A stretch of DNA of 64,000 nucleotides, from assembly GCA_005778355.1 (NCBI GenBank), contig SXON01000006.1, positions 1 to 64,000 on the forward strand, given 5' to 3'. The stretch's first letter is position 1. Each line of letters starts with the position of its first letter. Of the stretch, positions 132-21,675 are shown piece after piece. The notes beneath the pieces were generated by a model. That model was not told the DNA's origin. It saw only the letters and a list, made by a program, of their open reading frames with translations, and made no database searches. Source of the stretch: Pseudomonadota bacterium (GTDB lineage: Bacteria; Myxococcota_A; UBA796; SXON01). The position numbers and the translations under genes were made by a program.

Positions 132-3100
132 CTACAACACGTCGCTCTCCCCGCCGGCCCCCACGATCTGCTCGCGCACACCGGCACGATCGATGGCCTG
201 GTCGAGCGTGAGCGGCCAGGGCGCGCCCGCCAGTCTCAGCACCGGGCGCGGCTCCTTGTGGCCCGCCAGCCAGGTGTAGAGCGCCGCCACGCCGTAGGTG
301 CGCGCGATCCAGTCCACGACGAGGTAACCCGCCTTGTACTCGGTCCACTGCTGTCCGTCGTCGGCACGGTAGCTTGGCTCGTTGCCCACCGACATACGGA
401 ACTGCGTGTCCACCCAAGTGGCGTGGCCCTCGATCACCAGCTTGCCCTCGTAGTAGGCATTGCCCGGCGAGCCGGTGCGATGCCGGCCAGCGTCGAAGCG
501 ACCCCCCTCCCACTGCCAGTTGTGGGTGTACTCGTGGGCGATCACCTCCGCCACCCAGTCGTCGTCAGCATGGGGACGCACCCGCACCTCATGCTCCGGC
601 CCGGAGCGGTAGAAACCGGCGGAGAGGCGCTCGGCGCACTCCTCGGGGGTCATCCACGTGATGGGCGCCACCCGCGCCTGCGGGATCACCTGCAGGGCCC
701 CGAACATCTGCGTCACCCAGCCGCCCGTCCAACCGGGGGGCTCCCCCAGGATCCGCCGCCGCAGCCGGTCGAGACGATTGACGTCGCGCTCCTCGGCGTC
801 GCGAACCTTCACCTCGGGCAGAACGCCCACGCCCACGAGCCAGTCGACGGCCGCCCGACGGCTCACCCGGAAGCCCTGGGCGCTGGGCTCGATGTCCGGC
901 TCGACGCGCCCACCACGAGGCAGCGTCAAGAGCACGGGCACGTCGCCGAGGCGCGCGCAACACAACACGCAGCCGTCGAGGCAGTGACAGGCACGCAGCC
1001 GCTTGCCCAGCCGGGCCAAGAGTGCCCGCAGCTCGTCGGCCGAGTTGGGGTGGAGCGCAGAGAGCTCCGTCCACTCCCCGGAGGCGAAACGACGGAAGAA
1101 CAACCACCGCGAGGCACCTTCCTCGCCGTCGAGCATCTCGGCGTCGATCTCCTCGCCGAGGCCGAGGCACGCTGCCTCGAGATCGAGCCGCCACGCGTTG
1201 AGAAGCGCGCGCGAGGCCTCGGGCGACAACGCGACGCTGGGCGTGCGAATGTCGATCGAGAGCGAAGCCGCGGTGAAGGCGTGGGTGTACGGGGGCACGT
1301 CCACCGGGTTGCCCACCAGCCGGCGATCGGCGTTCAGACCGTGCGCCGTGCTGAAGACGCCGGACACGGTCTCCCTCACGCGCGACAACTCGCGCGTGAA
1401 CCGGAAACAAAGGCCCGTCGGGAGGGAGAAGTCCCTTGTGCGCACGAGCGCCTCTTGCCCGATCGCGAGCTGGCGCACCGAGCGGTACAACGCCGGCGAC
1501 GCGGCCACGCTCGACTCCGGCGTGAACACGCCCACCCGGCCACCGTCGATCGCGGCAACTTGAAGCGAGTGGCCCTCCCCCTCCACCCGGGTGGTGGCGA
1601 TCCAGTCGACGAGGCCCCGCTCGGCATCGACCTGGGCCGACCGCCCGACCTCGTCGTGCGCCGCGTTCTCGCTCTGCACGAGGAGGCGCTCGCTGGTGAC
1701 ACACGACCAGGGCATCGGCGGCGCCACGGGGCGCGGCCAGGTGGCCGGCGCGACGAAGAACGGTTCCGCCCGCACCTCGCCCGTGGTGGCGTCGCGAACC
1801 ACGCCGGCTTGCACGCAGCCACCGAGCCCCTGCGCAGGCGCCCCCGCCAGGAAGTCCGCCCAGGGCTCGCCGCCGTGGGTGCGCGCCATCTTGGAGCCCG
1901 CGAGGCAGGTGCCCGGCTTCAGCCGCTCGAGGAACTGCCACAGGCGCGCCGTGACGAGGTCGTCGCTGAGCCCTGGCGGGTACACCACCACCCGGCGCCG
2001 CGCCGCAGCGGCCTCGACGTCTGACACGGCCTCCACGTCGTGAGCACGGGGCGCCGCCACTACGAACAGGGTCCCTCCGGGCGCGAGGAGCCCGCGCAAC
2101 GCGTCGATCTCGGCGCCGGCGGTGGCACCAGGGCCCGCGTGCACGATCACGGGGAAACCCTCGCCGTGCGCGGCCGGGGCGAAGCCGCGGGAGAGCTCGA
2201 TGCGCGGCACGAGGTCGACCGGGTCGGCCTTGAAGAGCTCCGACCAGTCGGCCGCCACCTGCTTGACCGCCTTCGACAGGGCCTCGCGGGCCTCGGGGCT
2301 GAGCAGGCCGGTGGCGTCGGACACGAGCACCCGTGGACGAACCCGGGCGCCGAAAACACCACAGAAGCCGGCGGCGCCGATGCTCGCGAGCAGCACGGCC
2401 AGCTCCTCGGCGAGGGGCGTGCGCACGATGTAGCGCTCGTCGTGAGGCGAGAGCATCGTGGGCGGGAGCCAACCCACGAGGAGCTGCGTGGGGGCCGCCC
2501 GGTCGAGGCGGGCCTCGCGCGTGTCGGCGCGGGCGAGGAGGTGCTCCACCAGCGCCAGCCGATTGTCGGCGTCGTGCACCAGCGCCGCCGAGGCGAAGTC
2601 CTGCCCGCGTGCGCCCACGAGCATCCGCAGGCGGATGAGCGCCTCGCGCACGTGGAGCCACTCGGCGCGCGCGAACCGGTGCGGGTGCATCACCACCACC
2701 AGCCGCAAGCTCCAGGTCCAGGCCGGTTGCTCGTGCGCGAGCAAGGGGAGCAGGCTCTCCACCAGCTCCCTGCCCTGTGTCACGACCACCGCCGGCGCCG
2801 CCTCCGGCAAGGCGTGTCCGGCAGGGCCGGTGGGCACCGACCACAACAACTCCGGGTGATCCCCCTGCCGGGTGACCAGCCCGCTGAACCAGCCCGGCAG
2901 CACCTCCTCGCCAGTGGGCGTGACCACGAGCACCCGGCCGCCGCGGATCTCCGCCACCCAGGTGGCCGCCGCGAGCACCGCCTCGGTGCGCCCCGACCCG
3001 GGCAGGCCGCACACCGCCACGCTGCCCAGCGGTCGCTGCGAGGGCGCGCCGCCCGAGAGGACGGCCTCCGAGGCGGTCAGCACGGCCGCGACCCCGTCGA

Positions 3101-3797
3101 GGTGGTCGCGGGTGGGCGACCGGACGCCGGACGCCGCGAGCAGGGCCAGGGCGCCGGGCCAGGCCGCCTCGAACTGGGCGGCCTCGTCCGGCGTGGCGAG
3201 AACAGGCTCGCGGCCGCGCAACAGCGCGAGGGAGCTCACCTGCCACCGGTAGGGGGTGGACTCGCGGATGAACTTCAAAAGCGGAGAGTCCGGGCGCTCC
3301 TCGGCTGGTTCCCCGGCGACGGGGGCCGATGCCTCCACGTCCTCCCACCCCAGCGGCAGGAACACCGCGACGGCCAGGAGGCTCTGCGCCAGCAAGAGCC
3401 CGAGCAGGAGGCCGCCGGCCACCGCGCCGCCGGGACCCGCGAGCACCAGCAGGGGCGCCACCGTGGCCGTCGCCACCCCCACCGCCAAGGCACCGGCCAG
3501 GTACACCAGCGCCGACAATCGCGGGAGGCGGCTCATCATCGCGAGGTCCCAGGCGAGGCCCTGCGATTGCCCGGCCGGGAGCGCGCTCGCCAGGCCGAGA
3601 CCGCCGATGAGCGCGATCATCGCCCCGCCGCCGAGCACGGCCACGTCGAGAACGGTGACCGCGCCGGTGGCGAAGGCGGCAAGCACCGCCGGCGCGAGGA
3701 GCGGGACAAGCGTGCCGAGGAGCACCGCGAGCGTGGCCGCCAGCACGGCGGCGGCGCGGAGCCGGACGTGCATCGCCACGGGACGGCGCGCCGTCAT
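132..3797 (-). CDS. Membrane protein: degenerate MrfA-like helicase with Cys cluster, fused to HExxH peptidase
   Basis: 1221 aa, last gene of the leftward FtsZ-like operon; its ATG overlaps the preceding stop by 4 nt (ATGA). Residues about 12-150 hold several hydrophobic helices. A P-loop-like GLPGSGRT (264-271) has Arg where helicases have Lys, and no DEAD/DEAH box is seen where one is expected (VVMHPHRF). A CxCxxGCxxC cluster near residues 936-946 matches the zinc-binding MZB/DUF1998 signature of MrfA/YprA-type SF2 helicases. The C-terminal 200 residues carry HEYTH near 1084, followed by an EGHATW segment that could supply the third zinc ligand of a gluzincin peptidase. Inference: a membrane-anchored, ATPase-dead helicase-like scaffold with a zinc peptidase tail. 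I know of no described protein with this architecture. ORF and motifs are certain; the helicase relationship is probable; substrate is unknown. Confidence 0.75.
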   Translation of the reverse strand: MTARRPVAMHVRLRAAAVLAATLAVLLGTLVPLLAPAVLAAFATGAVTVLDVAVLGGGAMIALIGGLGLASALPAGQSQGLAWDLAMMSRLPRLSALVYLAGALAVGVATATVAPLLVLAGPGGAVAGGLLLGLLLAQSLLAVAVFLPLGWEDVEASAPVAGEPAEERPDSPLLKFIRESTPYRWQVSSLALLRGREPVLATPDEAAQFEAAWPGALALLAASGVRSPTRDHLDGVAAVLTASEAVLSGGAPSQRPLGSVAVCGLPGSGRTEAVLAAATWVAEIRGGRVLVVTPTGEEVLPGWFSGLVTRQGDHPELLWSVPTGPAGHALPEAAPAVVVTQGRELVESLLPLLAHEQPAWTWSLRLVVVMHPHRFARAEWLHVREALIRLRMLVGARGQDFASAALVHDADNRLALVEHLLARADTREARLDRAAPTQLLVGWLPPTMLSPHDERYIVRTPLAEELAVLLASIGAAGFCGVFGARVRPRVLVSDATGLLSPEAREALSKAVKQVAADWSELFKADPVDLVPRIELSRGFAPAAHGEGFPVIVHAGPGATAGAEIDALRGLLAPGGTLFVVAAPRAHDVEAVSDVEAAAARRRVVVYPPGLSDDLVTARLWQFLERLKPGTCLAGSKMARTHGGEPWADFLAGAPAQGLGGCVQAGVVRDATTGEVRAEPFFVAPATWPRPVAPPMPWSCVTSERLLVQSENAAHDEVGRSAQVDAERGLVDWIATTRVEGEGHSLQVAAIDGGRVGVFTPESSVAASPALYRSVRQLAIGQEALVRTRDFSLPTGLCFRFTRELSRVRETVSGVFSTAHGLNADRRLVGNPVDVPPYTHAFTAASLSIDIRTPSVALSPEASRALLNAWRLDLEAACLGLGEEIDAEMLDGEEGASRWLFFRRFASGEWTELSALHPNSADELRALLARLGKRLRACHCLDGCVLCCARLGDVPVLLTLPRGGRVEPDIEPSAQGFRVSRRAAVDWLVGVGVLPEVKVRDAEERDVNRLDRLRRRILGEPPGWTGGWVTQMFGALQVIPQARVAPITWMTPEECAERLSAGFYRSGPEHEVRVRPHADDDWVAEVIAHEYTHNWQWEGGRFDAGRHRTGSPGNAYYEGKLVIEGHATWVDTQFRMSVGNEPSYRADDGQQWTEYKAGYLVVDWIARTYGVAALYTWLAGHKEPRPVLRLAGAPWPLTLDQAIDRAGVREQIVGAGGESDVL

Positions 3798-5521
3798 GGG
3801 TTTGCCTCCCAGCGGACGCGGGCCCGAAGGACCACGCCCGGCGGCGTGCCCCCCAGCGGCTCGACCGCCCGGAGGGCCGGTGGCGGCTCAGCGACCGCGG
3901 GCGGCGGCGCCGGTAGCCGCGCCAGGGCCTCGTCGATCCACCCGCGCTGCCGGTCCAGCAGCAACATGCGCGCGTCGAAGGGCTCCGCCAGCGCGGCCAG
4001 GAAGATGCGCGCGTCGATGGCCGCCAAAAGCGCCGACTCCGCCGTGACCTCGCGCCCCGGCACCTCGCCCACGACCGCCCACGCGGCGCTCCGTTGCGAG
4101 GCGATCGCGTCGAGGTCGGCGAGGTCGCCGTCGGCCTCCACCTTCGCCGGGATCGCGACCAGCTCGCGAAAACCGCGCCGGGCCGTGTCGATCATCTCGA
4201 GCATCGCGGCCGCCCGGCCCTGGGCGTCGGCGCCGGCCGTGGCCACCAGGCGCGCCGTGGCCGCTGCGCGCCCTCGCTCCACGCTCTCGCGGAGTCCTCC
4301 GAGGTCGGCGTCCATCCCGGCCTGGATACTCTCGGCGGCGTCGAGATGCTGTCGGCGGACCAGCCGGTGGACCGCCTGGACCGCGAGCCCGGCCGCGGCC
4401 CCGGCGACGGCCGCGATGGCCAGGCGCGGCGGGGTCAACGGCAATCCCAGCGCCAGGAGCGCCCAGCCCGTCAAGGGCAGCGTGGCCACGAGCGCCGCCA
4501 ACGAGAGGCCCGCGGCGAGGGACTGCAGCCCCCCGGCGGCGCCACCCGGCGCGAGGATGGCGCCCTTGACCCAGCTCGCCTCCTGGTCCGTCCACGACCC
4601 GGCCAGGGCGCGCGCGCGGGCGAGCGGCTTCTCGCCCGGCGGCGTGTAGTCGCCCGGCCGGCGGTCGGTCGCCAACTCCACCAGCTGCGCGCGTCCCGCG
4701 GGCACCGGCAGCGTCCCGTTCTCCACCTGGTTGCGAAGGCTGGTGAAGAAGGCCTGCGCGACGCGCGCGCCCTCGCCACTCGCGCGCGCGGCGAGTTGCC
4801 GGGGCAAGGACGTGCCGGCGCGCGCCACCTCGGCCTCGAGCGCGGCCACCTGCACCGGCGCGGTGAGGCCGAGGCTGTCGATCTTCGCCGACGGCGGCTC
4901 CGGCCAGCGAGCCAGGCTGGCCGGGAGCACACCCTCCTCCGACACCTCCACCCTGATGTCGCGCAGCTGCTGGCCGAGCTGGCTCGCGTCGCCCGGGATC
5001 GCCGTGGCGGTCGGCGCCGCGGGGGGCACGCCGAGCAGGTGCGCCAGCCGCTCGAGGTGGGCGCGGCGGGCCCCCGCGGGCGTGCGGCTCTCGGCCACGG
5101 CGACGTCGAGCAGGCGCGCGACCGTCGAGCCGTCGTAGTCGAGCGCGCTGATGTCCCGGCAAAACTCTGCGTCGTCGAGCAGCCGGTGGAGCGCGAGGAC
5201 GGCGCCCAGCGCTGGGAGGAGCGCCGGCCCGGGCCCGGAGACGACCTGGAACAAGTGATGACTCGGCGCCCATTTCACTGCGACGGCCCGGGGAACCACG
5301 GCGAGCACGATCGACCGGGGCATGGTGCCCACCAGGCAAGCCAGCGCCTCGTCCAGCGTGGGTCCCGCCACCAGCACGCAGGCGCGGGCCTCGTGCCCGG
5401 TGCGCCGGTCGGTCACGGTGATGCCATGCGCCCAGCCCTGCCGCCGGGCCAGCGAGGCGAGCATCGCAGACAGCGCGGCGCGCAGCGCCCCGTCGGGGAC
5501 GACGACGACCAGGCCGATCAT
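3794..5521 (-). CDS. Two-TM membrane protein of the FtsZ-like operon
   Basis: 575 aa, not recognised as a named family. It starts 13 nt after the stop of the tubulin-like gene and ends in a 4-nt overlap with the 1221-aa gene. The N-terminal 120 residues are alternating hydrophobic strands and helices and could be a Rossmann-like domain, but no P-loop is present. Two adjacent hydrophobic helices lie near residues 330-360 and 362-384, giving a hairpin membrane anchor with both large soluble parts on the same side. A helical, probably coiled-coil stretch follows (about 390-470), then a Pro-rich tail. The ATG at 5521 is used because upstream in-frame sequence lies inside the neighbouring gene. 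Likely the membrane partner of the vWA/tubulin-like pair, inferred from position only. Confidence 0.75.
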   Translation of the reverse strand: MIGLVVVVPDGALRAALSAMLASLARRQGWAHGITVTDRRTGHEARACVLVAGPTLDEALACLVGTMPRSIVLAVVPRAVAVKWAPSHHLFQVVSGPGPALLPALGAVLALHRLLDDAEFCRDISALDYDGSTVARLLDVAVAESRTPAGARRAHLERLAHLLGVPPAAPTATAIPGDASQLGQQLRDIRVEVSEEGVLPASLARWPEPPSAKIDSLGLTAPVQVAALEAEVARAGTSLPRQLAARASGEGARVAQAFFTSLRNQVENGTLPVPAGRAQLVELATDRRPGDYTPPGEKPLARARALAGSWTDQEASWVKGAILAPGGAAGGLQSLAAGLSLAALVATLPLTGWALLALGLPLTPPRLAIAAVAGAAAGLAVQAVHRLVRRQHLDAAESIQAGMDADLGGLRESVERGRAAATARLVATAGADAQGRAAAMLEMIDTARRGFRELVAIPAKVEADGDLADLDAIASQRSAAWAVVGEVPGREVTAESALLAAIDARIFLAALAEPFDARMLLLDRQRGWIDEALARLPAPPPAVAEPPPALRAVEPLGGTPPGVVLRARVRWEANP

Positions 5522-5534
5522 CCGCGCCGCCCCG

Positions 5535-8500
5535 TCAAGCGTGCAGCCAGCTCGGGAGGGCGCCCTCGGCCAGGGCCTGCGCCATCGCCTCGCCGAGCTT
5601 CTGCGCCGCCGAGTCGAACACGTCCGAGCGCTCCTCGTCGCCTCGCGCCGCCGCGCGCGCTTGTTTCTGCCAGTCGGCCTTGAGCTTGGTGAGCTCGCCG
5701 GCCACCAGCCCCTTCCAGCCGCGCTCCCTGTGGTGCCGCTGCTCGAGCTCGGCCCCGCACGCCCTCGCGAGCAGGCCCAGCGCCCGGGCGCCGTCGTGAC
5801 TTGCAAGCCACTCGGCACAGCCGACGAGGCTGCGCGGCCCGATCACCTCGTCGCTGGCGATCCCGTGGCCGCCGTCCGACGCCGCCAGCTCCGCGCGGCA
5901 CTTGACGATCCCGGTGCGCGACACCGCGACGATGCCCAGGTGCTGCGCCAGCAGGAGCACGCAGGCCGCCTGGCCCGCGCTGCCCGCGTCCCAACGGCTC
6001 GCCACGCGCCAGCGGGTGCCGTAGCGACGGTCCACGTGGGGATGAAACGTCTGGTGCGGTAAATAACGCCGATAGTTCAGATCGAAGCCCTCGGGCACGT
6101 GCACGTGGTCGAGCGCCACACCCAGCTCGAAGCGGAGGATGGCCAACTCGCCATGGCCGAAGCCGGTGTCGCCCTCCACGTACACCGCGCTCCCGAGGCG
6201 ACCGGCCAGCCGCAGGGCCTCGACGGCCTGCCCCGTGGCCGCGTTCGCCGGGTGGTAGGCCACCACCGTGTCGCCCCCGGGGGCCTTGCCCTCCTCCAGC
6301 CGCCACAGGGCGGCGGCGAGATCGAAGGCGCGGGCCACCGGCGCGGCCGCGAGAATGTCCGTCGCGCGGACCATCGCCGCGTTGGTGTCGCGCGTCCAAT
6401 CCAGGTCGTTCACCGCCTTGGCCGTGGTCTCCCCGTAGATCGCCATCAGGCGCGACTGGCACTCACGGTTCACGCGGGCGTCCTTCGATTGGCGGGCGCC
6501 CTCGTACCAGTCCTCGAGGTCGAGCTTGGCTGCCTCGCGGAGCGCGTTGTCGAGCGTGCACAGCTCGAGCGCCGCGCCGCGAAGGTTGGCGCTCACCACG
6601 CCCGTCATCGCCAGTCGAAGGCTGTCGGCCCGGCGCTCCAAGTTGACTGGCTTCAGGGCGTCGGCCCACTTCGCGTTGTGCGCGTTTGCCGCGAGCAGCT
6701 CTCCGAAGGCCTCGGCCAGCCTCATCCCCACGCTCTCGGCGTTGGTCGCGGCGTCGAGCTTGCCCCGGCCCTGCATCTGCGCCACCAGCCAACGGCGGAA
6801 CGTGGCACCGGCGCCCACCACGTGCCGCCCGCCTTCCACTTTCTCTGCCGCGCGCCGGGCGTCATCGGCGTTGGACACCGCCTTGGCGATCGCGTTGCCG
6901 CGGATCACCTGGTCGGCGAGCGCCGCGATCACCCGGGACTGCGCCTCGAGGTGCCGCTTGAGGGTGCCGTACACCGTGTTCACGGCGGGCACTGCGGCGT
7001 GCCAGAAGTACCAGTCGAGCTCCTGGGCGCCGAAGGTCTTGATGGCCTCCACGTTGCCGCGCGACGCACGCTTGAAGCCACCACGGAGCACGACCAGCCA
7101 GTTCGCCGCCGCCTCGTCGATCTGCTGGCGAGCCGCCTGCTTCACGCCCACGTCCTGCCGTTTCCCGGGATCGGCCTCCTTGGCCTCGTTCGCTGCCACG
7201 TCGGCCCAGGCGTGGTCGATGTGTTGGATGAGGCCCGCGACGAAGCGCCCTGCCACCCCGAGCGCCCCCTTCTCAACGAGTCCACGCACCTGGGCGTCGG
7301 TCTTCACGATCAGCTCTCGTTGCACCAGCTCGCGCGCCATCGCGTTGAGTTGGTCCGGGAGGCGGTCGAGCTCCTTGAGGAAGCGGTCGAAGTCGTCGAG
7401 GTAGCCCGGCAGCTCTTCCTTGCTGGCCTGATCGAGCTGGCCGTTGAGCCGGTCGAGCGTAGTTTCGAGGGTGTCGCGCACCGTGCGGAAGCGGTCGAAG
7501 AGCTGGTTACGCTCGCGACCGGGTCGCTCCTCGATGCGCAACACGTCGGTGAAGAAGTGGCGCGCCGCGTCGTCCACGCTCGGATGCAGGGCCGCGTAGC
7601 TCTGGTCCACCAGGCCAAGGCGGGCGTTGTGTTCGGCCGTGCCCTCGCCCACCACCCACTCGAGCACCTGCTTCACCGCCTCGTGCTCCACCCAGTCGGC
7701 GAGCGCCGGGCCGGGCACCGTCAACAACGATGCGCCCAGCGAGCCGAATCGACGGTCGGGCGGCGCGGCCACGAAGGTGTCCAGCGTGCGGCGCGAGCGG
7801 TCGATGCCCTTCGCCCACAGCGCCAGCGCCTTGCCGAGCGCACTCTCGAGCTGCTCGCGGCTCCGCTCCACCCCGCGACGGTCGAGGTTCTGGATCACCA
7901 GGTTGTACTCGATGGGGGCGGTGTCGGGCGGCAACTCCACGTCGAACCAGCCGTCATCCTCGCCGCGCACGCGAACCGAGTACCCCTCCCTGCCGGCGGC
8001 GGCGCGGCTCCACGCGTCGACCTCCAATAAGGCGGCGATCGAGTTCGCGGCCCGGCGACTATTCACGACGTCCTGCTGGGTGGCGGACCCGGCCCCGGAC
8101 ACCGCGAGCGCGTCCATTTGCACGCCGAAAATGCGAACCGTGGTGATGTCGCGGGCGGCCGCGGCCCGCCGGACCAGCGCCGCGGTGTCCATGAATGTGC
8201 CGGACCCCGTGCCGTTGGTCAGGCTCGAGGCGATGAACACGTCGAGCGAGCTCCGCGCCACGTCGGGCGGGCAGTTGCGCATCAGCGCGCCGATGGCATC
8301 GTTGATCGCCCGGATGAACCACTGCGCATGATACACGAGGAAGAACCGGCCGTAGGCGCGCGTCATGCCGCAGCCGTCGGAGTAGTCGACACTGGCGCTG
8401 CCCTGGAGCTGCGCAGGCCACCAGTCGGCGATCTCCGCCGCATTTCGACGCAGCTCGTTGATCTGGTTGATGGGGTCGGGCGGCGTCGGGTAGAGCACGT

Positions 8501-8648
8501 GGGTGAGCGGCACGTCCGGCACCAGCTTGGCGTCGAGCGCGATCATGCCGATGGCGCGGCCCGCCGGGTTGCCGACTTCCTTCTCCAGCGCCGAGAGAAT
8601 GCGAGTGCCGGTGCCGCCGAGGCCGATGAATAGGGTGGGCTTGCTCAT
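5535..8648 (-). CDS. Tubulin/FtsZ-like GTPase (Tubulin_2-type)
   Basis: 1037 aa. The N-terminus has GLGGTGTR (residues 9-16), the first nucleotide-binding loop of the FtsZ/tubulin fold. Residues 145-151 read NGTGSGT, the equivalent of the T4 G-box (GGGTGSG) that binds GTP phosphates. Both positions and spacing fit large tubulin-like proteins rather than cell-division FtsZ (about 380 aa). The remaining 650+ residues are mostly helical, including a probable coiled coil around 400-470, and are unassigned. ATG at 8648 is preceded by GGAG at good spacing; the gene lies 19 nt after the vWA gene. Makarova and Koonin (2010) proposed that FtsZ-like families encoded beside vWA proteins act in membrane remodelling, which fits this context. 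Expected role: a GTP-dependent polymer or switch in a membrane-associated complex. Confidence 0.85.
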   Translation of the reverse strand: MSKPTLFIGLGGTGTRILSALEKEVGNPAGRAIGMIALDAKLVPDVPLTHVLYPTPPDPINQINELRRNAAEIADWWPAQLQGSASVDYSDGCGMTRAYGRFFLVYHAQWFIRAINDAIGALMRNCPPDVARSSLDVFIASSLTNGTGSGTFMDTAALVRRAAAARDITTVRIFGVQMDALAVSGAGSATQQDVVNSRRAANSIAALLEVDAWSRAAAGREGYSVRVRGEDDGWFDVELPPDTAPIEYNLVIQNLDRRGVERSREQLESALGKALALWAKGIDRSRRTLDTFVAAPPDRRFGSLGASLLTVPGPALADWVEHEAVKQVLEWVVGEGTAEHNARLGLVDQSYAALHPSVDDAARHFFTDVLRIEERPGRERNQLFDRFRTVRDTLETTLDRLNGQLDQASKEELPGYLDDFDRFLKELDRLPDQLNAMARELVQRELIVKTDAQVRGLVEKGALGVAGRFVAGLIQHIDHAWADVAANEAKEADPGKRQDVGVKQAARQQIDEAAANWLVVLRGGFKRASRGNVEAIKTFGAQELDWYFWHAAVPAVNTVYGTLKRHLEAQSRVIAALADQVIRGNAIAKAVSNADDARRAAEKVEGGRHVVGAGATFRRWLVAQMQGRGKLDAATNAESVGMRLAEAFGELLAANAHNAKWADALKPVNLERRADSLRLAMTGVVSANLRGAALELCTLDNALREAAKLDLEDWYEGARQSKDARVNRECQSRLMAIYGETTAKAVNDLDWTRDTNAAMVRATDILAAAPVARAFDLAAALWRLEEGKAPGGDTVVAYHPANAATGQAVEALRLAGRLGSAVYVEGDTGFGHGELAILRFELGVALDHVHVPEGFDLNYRRYLPHQTFHPHVDRRYGTRWRVASRWDAGSAGQAACVLLLAQHLGIVAVSRTGIVKCRAELAASDGGHGIASDEVIGPRSLVGCAEWLASHDGARALGLLARACGAELEQRHHRERGWKGLVAGELTKLKADWQKQARAAARGDEERSDVFDSAAQKLGEAMAQALAEGALPSWLHA

Positions 8649-8667: not shown

Positions 8668-10560
8668 TCACTTTGCGGATCGTTCGATGCGGATGGTGCG
8701 GGTGCCCGGGTCGATCTCGGAGAATTCGAGACCGTCGCCGGGTCGGTTGAACTGCTGGGGCTTGGGCATGGGTTCGAGGCGACCCGCGCCGAGGCGCCAG
8801 CCGCGGGTGAGAGGCAAGAGGACGAAGGCACAGGCCGCCGGTGAACCCGCGCCGGGGCGCAGCTCGGCCACCGCGCCCACCTTCGAGCCGCGAAGCCGCA
8901 GCTCCTCGCCGTGCCGGACAATGTACAACGGTCGCCGTGAAAAACGCGCCCAGTTGGTGTGGAGCAGGGCGGCGCGGTCGTTGCCGACTTTCAGCGCGGG
9001 ATGAAACTTGGGCCGGGTGAACCACGCGGTCAGGACCGCCAGCCCAGCCAGACCGGACAGCCACGCCCCGAGGTGCGGCCGCCAGGACACGCGCCCGGGG
9101 ATCGACACGCAGCCCCGCGCGTCGGCCTGTCCCGAGCAGTCGGCGCAGCTCACCGCGAGTCCCGGCGACGACGCACACACGCGCAGGCCGAGCTCCCCGG
9201 TCGCGACGCCAGGGTCGGCGCCGAGCCAAGTCGAAAGTGTCCACGGCTGCGCGCGGGGGTGCACGCGCAGGTCGATGGGAACAGGCTCGTCCCCGGCAAG
9301 GACCGTCAACTGCCCGCCGCACTGGCCCCCGGCGCAGAGCTCCACGTCGCCGGGGACGGCCACGCCCCCGGCCGTCTCGACGGCGAGGGTGACACTCGCC
9401 GTGCCCTTCCCGCCCGGCGCCGCCACCGCCAGCGGCCGGTCCACCGGTAAAAAAGCGCCAAGGAGGCCGGGCACGAGCTCGGGGATGGGCGCGTCGAGGG
9501 CGCCACTCTGACCGGAGAGCACCACCGAGGCCGCGCGCGTGACATCGAAGCTGGCCGCCGCGCAGCTCGGGCCGGTGGACAAGGGCGAGAACGCCACCCC
9601 CGGCCCAACCGTGGAGAGCGCCGCGCACACGTGCGACGGGCTCGGGGCGAGCAGGTAGCGCCCCTCCGGCAACTCCGCCGGCAAGGTGACGCTTCCCGGC
9701 GCCCAGCGCGCCTGGAAGGGCTGCATCGACGCCGGCGCCGCGCCCTCGACGCGCCAGCCGGGCTCGTCGGTCGCCTCGCCCCTGGGAGAGAGCAGGTGGA
9801 AGGGCACCTCCGGGGCGGAGGCCTCGGCGATGGCCGGGCACGCGGCCAGCTCGGGATTGCCGAGCAAGCGCGGGAAGAAGGTGATCGCAGGCGGCGAGCT
9901 CACCTCGATGCTGTCGCGACGACCCGCGCTGAGGTTGACCACGCCCTGGAGCGGGGCCGTCCACGCGTAGAGATACTCTGGCCCGCCCTGCGACAGTTCG
10001 CCCACGCCGCCCTTCTGCACGGGCCAGATCACGTGCCGCAGGGCCTCCCGATTGCGGTCGAGCCACGCCTTCTCCGCCGCGGTGTCCGGGCAGTTGTCCT
10101 GGCCGTCGGTGAAGACGAGGAAGTCCCAGGCAGCGGCGGCCCGGAGGTCTTGCCCGGTGTCGCTCACCCCCAGCCGGGGCGCGGCGAGCTGGTAGATCGA
10201 CTTGTACAAGCACGTACGTTGCTCGCCGTAGGCGGCCGGGTCGGAAGGAAAGAACTGGTCGAGCGCGAGCTTGGCGTCTCGGGGCGACCCGCCGGGACCC
10301 TTCGTGGGCCAGGTGGCCACGAGCCCCGTGCCGAAGGTGGCCAGCGTGACCGCCACCGCCTGGTCGCCGTAGCCGGCCAGCTTGTCGAGCAGTGCCTCGG
10401 TGCGCGCGCGCGCCGCCTTGATGCCCTCGGGCACCTGCTTCATCGAGCCGCTGCGGTCGACGAGAAGCACCACCTGGTAGCGCTGGTCGAGCGCACTGGC
10501 GTCGCCCGCGCACGGGTCGGCCCCGTGGGCGAGACCGCTGGCCAGGAGGAGGGGGAGCAT
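8668..10560 (-). CDS. Membrane-anchored von Willebrand factor A protein
   Basis: 630 aa, first gene of leftward operon A. Residues 1-14 form a short signal peptide. The vWA domain begins at about residue 27; DRSGS (35-39) and TDG (151-153) supply an intact metal-ion-dependent adhesion site, so the domain should bind Mg2+ and a partner. A beta-rich middle with several Cys pairs follows. One TM helix near residue 495-515, followed by Arg/Lys, leaves a C-terminal domain of about 100 residues on the cytoplasmic side. The gene is 19 nt upstream of the tubulin-like gene, so the two products are likely partners, with extracytoplasmic sensing linked to a cytoplasmic GTPase. It diverges from the CorA-like gene over a 91-bp gap that must carry both promoters. 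Confidence 0.85.
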   Translation of the reverse strand: MLPLLLASGLAHGADPCAGDASALDQRYQVVLLVDRSGSMKQVPEGIKAARARTEALLDKLAGYGDQAVAVTLATFGTGLVATWPTKGPGGSPRDAKLALDQFFPSDPAAYGEQRTCLYKSIYQLAAPRLGVSDTGQDLRAAAAWDFLVFTDGQDNCPDTAAEKAWLDRNREALRHVIWPVQKGGVGELSQGGPEYLYAWTAPLQGVVNLSAGRRDSIEVSSPPAITFFPRLLGNPELAACPAIAEASAPEVPFHLLSPRGEATDEPGWRVEGAAPASMQPFQARWAPGSVTLPAELPEGRYLLAPSPSHVCAALSTVGPGVAFSPLSTGPSCAAASFDVTRAASVVLSGQSGALDAPIPELVPGLLGAFLPVDRPLAVAAPGGKGTASVTLAVETAGGVAVPGDVELCAGGQCGGQLTVLAGDEPVPIDLRVHPRAQPWTLSTWLGADPGVATGELGLRVCASSPGLAVSCADCSGQADARGCVSIPGRVSWRPHLGAWLSGLAGLAVLTAWFTRPKFHPALKVGNDRAALLHTNWARFSRRPLYIVRHGEELRLRGSKVGAVAELRPGAGSPAACAFVLLPLTRGWRLGAGRLEPMPKPQQFNRPGDGLEFSEIDPGTRTIRIERSAK

Positions 10561-20322: not shown

Positions 20323-21675
20323 ATGGCCAGCACCCCCCTCTCCACCCTCCACCGCGACCCTCGCTTCGCCGCGCTCCGGCTGCGGCGGAGCTTCTGGGTG
20401 GGCCTCGCGCTCCTCACCCAGCTCGGCGTGTTCGCGCTGGTGGCCTGCCTGCGGGTGCTCCCCCACGAGAACGGCGGTTTCCTCCGCTACGACGTGAGCC
20501 TCGCGCTGCCCGGCGCGGGGCACGCCGTGGCGCTCGGCGTCACGGTGCTCTGGATGCTGTGGGCCGCCGGCAGGCAGGCGCGCAAACACCTCGACCGCCC
20601 CGACGTCACCAAGCTGCGCCCCGCCGAGGGCCCCCTGCCCATGTACGGCGCGCTCTCCGGTCACGAGCTGGTGGCGATGGTCGACGAGGTCGCCACCCAG
20701 ATGAACGTCGGCCACATCGACATCGTGGCCGTGGAAGACCACCTCGTCCCCAACGCGATGACCGCCCGGGTGCCCGGGCTCGGCAGCTTCGTGCTCCTGC
20801 ACAGCAACCTGCTGCACCTCTTGAACCCCGCCGAAGTCCGCGCCGTCGTCGCCCACGAGGTGGCGCACGTGCGCGCGAGCGACTCGATGGTGGCCCTCGC
20901 CAGTCGCCTCCCCGGCGTGGCGGCCACCGCCATGGCTGGCTGGCTCCTGGTGCACGTGGCCGACGGGCTGCTGCTACCCGGCAACGTCTTCACCTTCCTG
21001 CAACGCCTCTTGTTCCTCGCGCTTGGCTGGATGGCCTGGCTCGCGGCCCGGGGCATGATCACGCTTTTCACTCAGCGGGCGAGTCGTATCGCAGAAGTGA
21101 TCGCCGACCTGCGCGCGGCCGCCGCCTGCGGCTACGAGGCCCACATCAACGCGCTCTTGCGCATCGGCGAGCGCGCCGAGGCCCTCGCCGCCTTCAGCAA
21201 GGGCGTCACCGGCGTGCTCTCCGCCATGGGCGCCCAGGGCGCCGCCCCGGCGCTCTACGCCCTCATCGGTCAACTTCCTCGCTCGCTGGTCGACGCCGAG
21301 AAGGCCGCCTACGCTGCCCCCTACGCGTTTGTGAAGCATCACCTCGAGGCGATGCGTAAGGGCCTCGGGCTGGCGCTCGACGACGAGCAGATCCGCGCCC
21401 TCGCCCGGGGCGCCGCCGAGCACTACTGGAATAAGTCCGAGGAGAAACCTGCCGGGCCCGCAGAGGAGCGGCTGAGCTGGCGGGAGTTCGACGCCGACCA
21501 CTCGGAGTTCCTCGACCGCGAGGAGGCCGAGCGACTCGTCGAGGCGCTCCGAAAGGACGGCAAACGCCTGTTGTTCCGCACGCTGAGCAAGCAGGCGAGC
21601 ATCGCCGACAGCCACCCCACCATGCGCGATCGCATCCTCGCCGTGCACGCCTACTTCGGGCGCCGAGCGCGATAG
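20323..21675 (+). CDS. M48-family zinc metalloprotease, membrane-bound
   Basis: 450 aa. HEVAH at residues 178-182 is the HExxH zinc/catalytic motif. A later SRIAEVIAD segment supplies the third ligand Glu in the SRxxExxAD arrangement of HtpX/Ste24-type M48 peptidases, and SHPTMRDRI near the C-terminus is the family's conserved terminal motif. TM helices lie near residues 25-45, 65-80 and in the stretch about 200-245. A C-terminal insert with EFDADHSEFLDREEAERL resembles an EF-hand-like loop. Likely role: membrane protein quality control or processing. It diverges from operon B and ends 9 bp before the MqnC-like gene. Confidence 0.85.
   Translation: MASTPLSTLHRDPRFAALRLRRSFWVGLALLTQLGVFALVACLRVLPHENGGFLRYDVSLALPGAGHAVALGVTVLWMLWAAGRQARKHLDRPDVTKLRPAEGPLPMYGALSGHELVAMVDEVATQMNVGHIDIVAVEDHLVPNAMTARVPGLGSFVLLHSNLLHLLNPAEVRAVVAHEVAHVRASDSMVALASRLPGVAATAMAGWLLVHVADGLLLPGNVFTFLQRLLFLALGWMAWLAARGMITLFTQRASRIAEVIADLRAAAACGYEAHINALLRIGERAEALAAFSKGVTGVLSAMGAQGAAPALYALIGQLPRSLVDAEKAAYAAPYAFVKHHLEAMRKGLGLALDDEQIRALARGAAEHYWNKSEEKPAGPAEERLSWREFDADHSEFLDREEAERLVEALRKDGKRLLFRTLSKQASIADSHPTMRDRILAVHAYFGRRAR

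Follow-up and report, generated by a model that had tools for sequence, protein, structure and literature searches.

A YprA/MrfA-type helicase fold without its motor motifs recurs in FtsZl1/vWA operons, where it is a putative membrane adaptor

A membrane-remodelling system built from vWA, FtsZl1, OmpA and GTPase components was predicted by Makarova and Koonin in 2010 (PMC2875224), and most of the other genes in FtsZl1 operons were described there as lacking recognizable domains; the text of that paper (supplementary family list aside) mentions neither a helicase nor a peptidase in the system. YprA helicases are central to the DISARM, Dpd, Druantia and ARMADA systems, and a 2025 survey of ~52,000 YprA homologues treats the family as DNA repair and immune helicases (PMC12458937); the text of the survey is silent on partners of the FtsZ/tubulin kind, on transmembrane forms and on fusions to peptidases. 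A further point of comparison is Utp25, the pseudohelicase of the SSU processome (PMC9539457), which is not known to belong to the YprA family and was the one named pseudohelicase in the literature we searched; it is not a membrane protein. That literature, which leaves out many journals, contained no earlier report of an association between YprA and FtsZl1.

The locus described here, from a 64,000-nucleotide stretch of bacterial DNA (the window), brings together a fold family and a predicted system that were both known already, in a combination that appears not to have been reported. As in the FtsZl1/vWA system, an FtsZl1 (Tubulin_2) gene, a vWA gene and membrane proteins share one operon, and one relative (L013) has an OmpA-like domain by inspection, but the window operon adds a helicase-derived protein with a peptidase-like tail, which is absent from the text of PMC2875224. 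This protein has the domain order of MrfA/YprA (structures 6znp, 6znq and 6zns), that is, RecA1, RecA2, winged helix and DUF1998/MZB, with exact cysteine spacing and full-length colinearity; it differs in its predicted membrane anchor, in the loss of catalytic and DNA-contact motifs, in the tail, and in being encoded within an FtsZl1 operon, not with mrfB or in a defence operon. DISARM, Druantia, Dpd and ARMADA also use a YprA-family protein, but there active helicases operate with nucleases or methylases. Utp25 is likewise an inactive helicase fold built into a large assembly; however, it is a eukaryotic ribosome-assembly factor without membrane anchor or peptidase.

The gene for this pseudo-YprA/MrfA helicase, with its predicted membrane anchor and C-terminal zinc-peptidase-like tail, occupies positions 132-3797 on the minus strand (1221 aa), and its ATG start overlaps the stop codon of the upstream gene as ATGA. 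Contig C34 ends at this open reading frame, where the window begins, and therefore the sequence 3' of the frame is not visible in this genome. A hydrophobic N-terminal region (3357-3752, minus strand; residues ~16-147), recognized by hydropathy and alike in relatives, likely forms four transmembrane helices arranged as two hairpins, and the core that follows is inferred to face the cytoplasm, with no direct evidence of membrane location available. The whole architecture is conserved in homologues from four other genomes of the phylum (L010, L011, L012 and L013) and thus does not represent a chance arrangement; invariant columns in the alignment of the five-member family include C-x-C-x-D-G-C-x2-C, both histidines of HExxH, and EGHAxW.

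The core of the protein is a complete MrfA/YprA-type fold. On the minus strand, it comprises a RecA1-like domain (2508-3287, approx. residues 171-430), a RecA2-like plus winged-helix-like region (1728-2507, approx. residues 431-690) and a DUF1998/MZB-like domain (873-1700, approx. residues 700-975) with the zinc cluster CHCLDGCVLCC (CxCx3Cx2C; 957-989, residues 937-947). A profile of the five proteins aligned with a profile of 18 canonical YprA proteins at an hhalign E-value of 2.7e-25 over 734 columns, and the alignment was colinear through RecA1, RecA2, winged helix and DUF1998. The window protein (P0001) by itself reached 1.1e-4 against the canonical profile, over RecA1, and had no significant match among Pfam, NCBIfam or PDB sequences; hence, relatives were needed for its identification. 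Searched against 177,635 distinct PDB sequences, the family profile had a single significant match, YprA 6znp (E 4.5e-8). Pfam DEAD and MZB both exceed their cutoffs among other FtsZl1-operon members; for MZB, L158 (39.3 bits) and L161 (37.9 bits) clear the cutoff easily, and L012 just reaches it (24.3 bits against 24.2). The AF2 model (pTM 0.55, mean pLDDT 59.5, RecA regions mostly at pLDDT 70-90) had MrfA structures (6znp/6znq/6zns) as its four best Foldseek matches in the PDB (E 4.5e-18 to 1.7e-11), with the first non-MrfA match at 3.7e-7. It is important to note that canonical YprA rows were part of the input alignment of this model and that the Foldseek TM-scores are modest (0.31-0.35, normalized by query length); the homology therefore rests mainly on the sequence comparisons.

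The catalytic and DNA-contact motifs of this fold have been lost from the window protein. At the Walker A position it reads GLPGSGRT, with Arg for Lys (2985-3008, minus strand; residues 264-271), and at motif II VVVMHPHRF replaces VVIDExH (2673-2699, minus strand; residues 367-375). Also missing are SAT, motifs Ia, IV, V and VI, the Q-motif, and both Asp and Glu of motif II (TRDHLDGV, VVMHPH). In a 46-row alignment of 31 FtsZl1-operon proteins and 15 canonical YprA proteins, all 15 of the latter keep the GK, DExH, SAT and motif VI Arg residues, whereas motifs Ia, III (SAT), IV, V and VI (QxxGRxGR) are lost in 31/31 operon members. The Walker position among these 31 is Arg in 18, Lys in 11 and Glu in two, and DELH is retained at motif II solely by L178. 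Because the helicase motifs are lost, ATP hydrolysis and translocation by the window protein are very unlikely, an inference from sequence; some relatives may still bind or hydrolyse nucleotide, since the Walker Lys survives in about one third of the members and DELH in one. Three YprA-derived proteins, L178 (12639-16352, plus strand), L179 and L181, have no motifs III and VI but still carry the Walker Lys (GAGKST) together with DELH/DDLH, and could possibly be intermediates on the way to activity loss.

An earlier note, made from sequence alone, had described a dead MrfA-like helicase preceded by transmembrane helices, with a Walker A-like GLPGSGRT lacking its Lys, no DEAD/DEAH box, and a C-terminal cysteine cluster with the MZB/DUF1998 signature. 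All of these points held: the core is homologous to MrfA with its motor motifs gone, hydrophobic segments lie at residues 16-147, Arg stands in the P-loop at residues 264-271 and VVVMHPHRF at 367-375, and the cysteine spacing is exact, with Pfam MZB reached in L012, L158 and L161. The two checks the note had proposed for the core have been run: the structure prediction returned MrfA 6znp/6znq/6zns as best PDB matches, and the MZB profile search was at cutoff in L012, above it in L158 and L161, and without significant match for P0001 alone. Neither outcome named as refuting the claim (a core without tandem RecA folds, or a cysteine cluster belonging to an unrelated zinc ribbon) was found.

The pseudo-helicase is the last gene of a tightly packed operon with the order vWA, FtsZl1 (Tubulin_2), coiled-coil membrane protein, pseudo-helicase, all on the minus strand. 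The first gene (8668-10560) encodes a vWA protein (P0004) with an intact MIDAS (DRSGS) and a sub-threshold Pfam vWA match, a signal peptide and C-terminal transmembrane anchor by inspection, and homology to the vWA genes of related operons (hhalign E 4e-22). The second (5535-8648; P0003) matches Pfam Tubulin_2 (PF13809, E 3.9e-23), which we take to be FtsZl1 because the two agree in architecture and gene context. The third (3794-5521) encodes a predicted membrane/coiled-coil protein with only weak similarity to the proteins at the same position in relatives (hhalign E 9.8e-4 vs. 0.27-0.8 for shuffled controls). No TRAFAC-type GTPase gene was found within the four-gene operon. In L012, the homologue is followed by an unrelated, ordinary methyltransferase gene and then a ferredoxin-like gene, and hence the operon appears to end at the pseudo-helicase. 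The vWA-position protein of L013 (3-2597, plus strand) starts with the OmpA-like domain mentioned above and has a degraded MIDAS, DASTR (both by inspection); its OmpA-like domain agrees with the reported link between FtsZl1 operons and OmpA. Elsewhere in the window there is an ordinary M48-family peptidase gene (20323-21675, plus strand; PF01435, E 5.8e-13), followed by a similarly ordinary radical-SAM gene whose C-terminal region is of the CofH/MqnC type.

The association recurs in FtsZl1 operons across the phylum. Tubulin_2 is present in 90 of the 379 genomes of the window's phylum; ~80 neighbourhoods were collected, of which 56 were testable (i.e., had ≥6 kb downstream or a match), and a YprA-derived protein lies downstream on the same strand in 40 of these 56. 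The other 16 (L125, L111, L110, L135 and 12 others) have no detectable YprA-like partner, and no pseudo-YprA was found in any of seven FtsZl1 loci outside the phylum (six Planctomycetota and one Halorubrum); such a partner is therefore not universal for FtsZl1. E-values are circular for the proteins that built the search profile, but several members were found anew outside it: L136 (8.9e-198), L141 (5.6e-177), L155 (2.8e-176), L176 (5.8e-101), L166 (8.3e-79) and L173 (1.8e-40). Detection depended on the query, with phmmer using the G103 protein and the first A1 profile missing most of the operon members that came up once pseudo and canonical sequences were combined in one profile, and the L119 match was detected by hmmsearch with --max and missed without it. 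Matches at L169 and L170 (opposite strand) and L157_3 were excluded as not representing an operon partner. The background is low, with only two MZB genes elsewhere in the window genome (6.6 Mb), both on other contigs. In the tree, a branch with 100% support separates 38 operon proteins from 15 canonical YprA proteins, and the five proteins of the window type group together, also with 100% support; this is consistent with, but does not prove, a single origin of the operon proteins, the root being a midpoint root. Transmembrane segments are predicted before the core in nearly all members vs. 0/15 canonical YprA proteins, based on simple hydropathy.

The tail is less securely assigned. The zinc-metallopeptidase-like region (135-869, minus strand; residues 977-1221) contains HEYTH, an HExxH zinc-binding motif (522-536, minus strand; residues 1088-1092), and, x30 past it, EGHATW with a candidate third zinc ligand Glu (414-431, minus strand; residues 1123-1128), a gluzincin-type pair (HEYTH-x30-EGHATW) whose H, H and E ligands are invariant in the five-member alignment. 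Relatives match the putative metallopeptidase DUF6782 under the Pfam cutoff. The structural match was not significant (AF2 pLDDT 66 from four sequences; Foldseek best E 0.7), with many of the top, non-significant matches being zinc metallopeptidases (e.g., M1 aminopeptidases and IrrE). Within the members examined, HExxH/EGHAxW is restricted to the five-member window clade, and one member (L013/L016) reads HAFVH, with zinc ligands kept and the catalytic Glu lost, which argues that a non-catalytic role persists. A Transglut_core match is found in L011. Other downstream FtsZl1-operon proteins end differently: L122 (15207-19901, plus strand; genome G206) has transmembrane segments, LLLGEPGSGRTT and a C-terminal transglutaminase-like GGGDCED, and the YprA-derived genes of L147, L139, L142, L148 and L119 have lost the MZB cysteines and carry a C-terminal extension without Pfam match in those scanned. 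A swapping of protein-modifying modules on a common scaffold is suggested, not shown. The gluzincin-like peptidase of the earlier note thus held as a motif, to which EGHATW is now added, and not as a significant fold match; its proposal of a helicase fold re-used as a membrane scaffold held for the fold, with the scaffold function remaining an inference. It had missed the FtsZl1/vWA operon and the recurrence of dead YprA proteins, most of them with predicted membrane segments.

We favor, at a probability of roughly 0.6, the hypothesis that the pseudo-helicase is a structural part of an FtsZl1/vWA membrane complex, with a peptidase tail in the window clade. Under this hypothesis, a YprA/MrfA-family SF2 helicase would have ceased to hydrolyse ATP and to translocate along DNA, acquired membrane helices at its N terminus and become a structural component of the complex. 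Its tandem-RecA and MZB body would be a cytoplasmic adaptor that tethers filaments of FtsZl1, and possibly also the coiled-coil protein, to the inner membrane. A change sensed by the vWA protein, which would face outward, would alter FtsZl1 filament assembly, and the pseudo-helicase would relay this to the tail, which would then cleave its target. Members with no tail, or with a catalytically inactive one, would be left with only the adaptor function. An adaptor is the best reading because the protein has no motor, has a predicted membrane anchor, and is encoded at a set position next to a GTPase from a filament-forming family. The analysis establishes the parts and how they are related. The most likely function, serving the FtsZl1 complex as membrane scaffold or adaptor while the peptidase acts as a regulated effector, is inferred, as is the coupling between the parts, and there is no direct evidence for FtsZl1 contact, proteolysis or the membrane location.

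The main rivals of the adaptor reading are an NTP-switch variant and a role in biological conflict. Under the former, which remains possible, the P-loop with Arg (Lys in relatives) would bind ATP without hydrolysis and toggle the complex, as opposed to being a passive scaffold. Retention of the GSG[KR][ST] loop by most members, with Lys in 11/31, and of the motif II Asp by some relatives speaks for it; however, the window protein has no Q-motif and lacks both acidic residues of motif II (Asp and Glu), and motif VI is missing from all members. Alternatively, the operon might serve in anti-phage defence or another biological conflict, in which the pseudo-helicase would be the sensor/adaptor and the peptidase would act as effector. 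The central place of YprA helicases in DISARM, Dpd, Druantia and ARMADA (PMC12458937), the presence of tubulin-domain proteins and vWA in proposed GTPase-centred conflict systems (PMC7159879) and the variable tails (peptidase, transglutaminase-like or none) are consistent with this. We consider it unlikely, as it is weakened by the negative PADLOC scans (no model matches the four operon proteins or the five-member family); further, the operon has no nuclease or methylase, and Pfam revealed no defence domains among the sampled upstream genes of the window. An active helicase with unusual motifs working on DNA at the membrane would fit the retained overall fold and MZB domain, but is very unlikely for the window protein, which retains neither the Walker Lys nor DExH and SAT, and from which motifs Ia, IV, V and VI have likewise disappeared. 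Finally, an unrelated NTPase (e.g., STAND) combined with an unrelated zinc ribbon, for which the lack of a significant Pfam match for P0001 alone and a weak, under-cutoff nSTAND match in the remote relative L122 could be cited, is all but excluded by the full-length colinear alignment with YprA, the YprA-only PDB profile result, the MrfA structures leading Foldseek, and the relatives exceeding the Pfam cutoffs for MZB and DEAD.

Returning to the adaptor reading, a bolder version of it, which we consider less likely than not, is that a tubulin-like filament system has a dead, integral-membrane DNA-repair helicase as its standing adaptor and was turned into a filament-regulated membrane protease in one lineage. 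If true, this would represent a new class of molecular machine, in which a cytoskeletal filament is joined to a pseudo-helicase and a peptidase. Short of this, one of the commonest partners of the FtsZl1/vWA system in the phylum, a system that was predicted in 2010 and whose partners are for the most part unassigned, gains a fold and an origin, and the YprA helicase family gains a branch that appears to be non-enzymatic and is predicted to be membrane-anchored.
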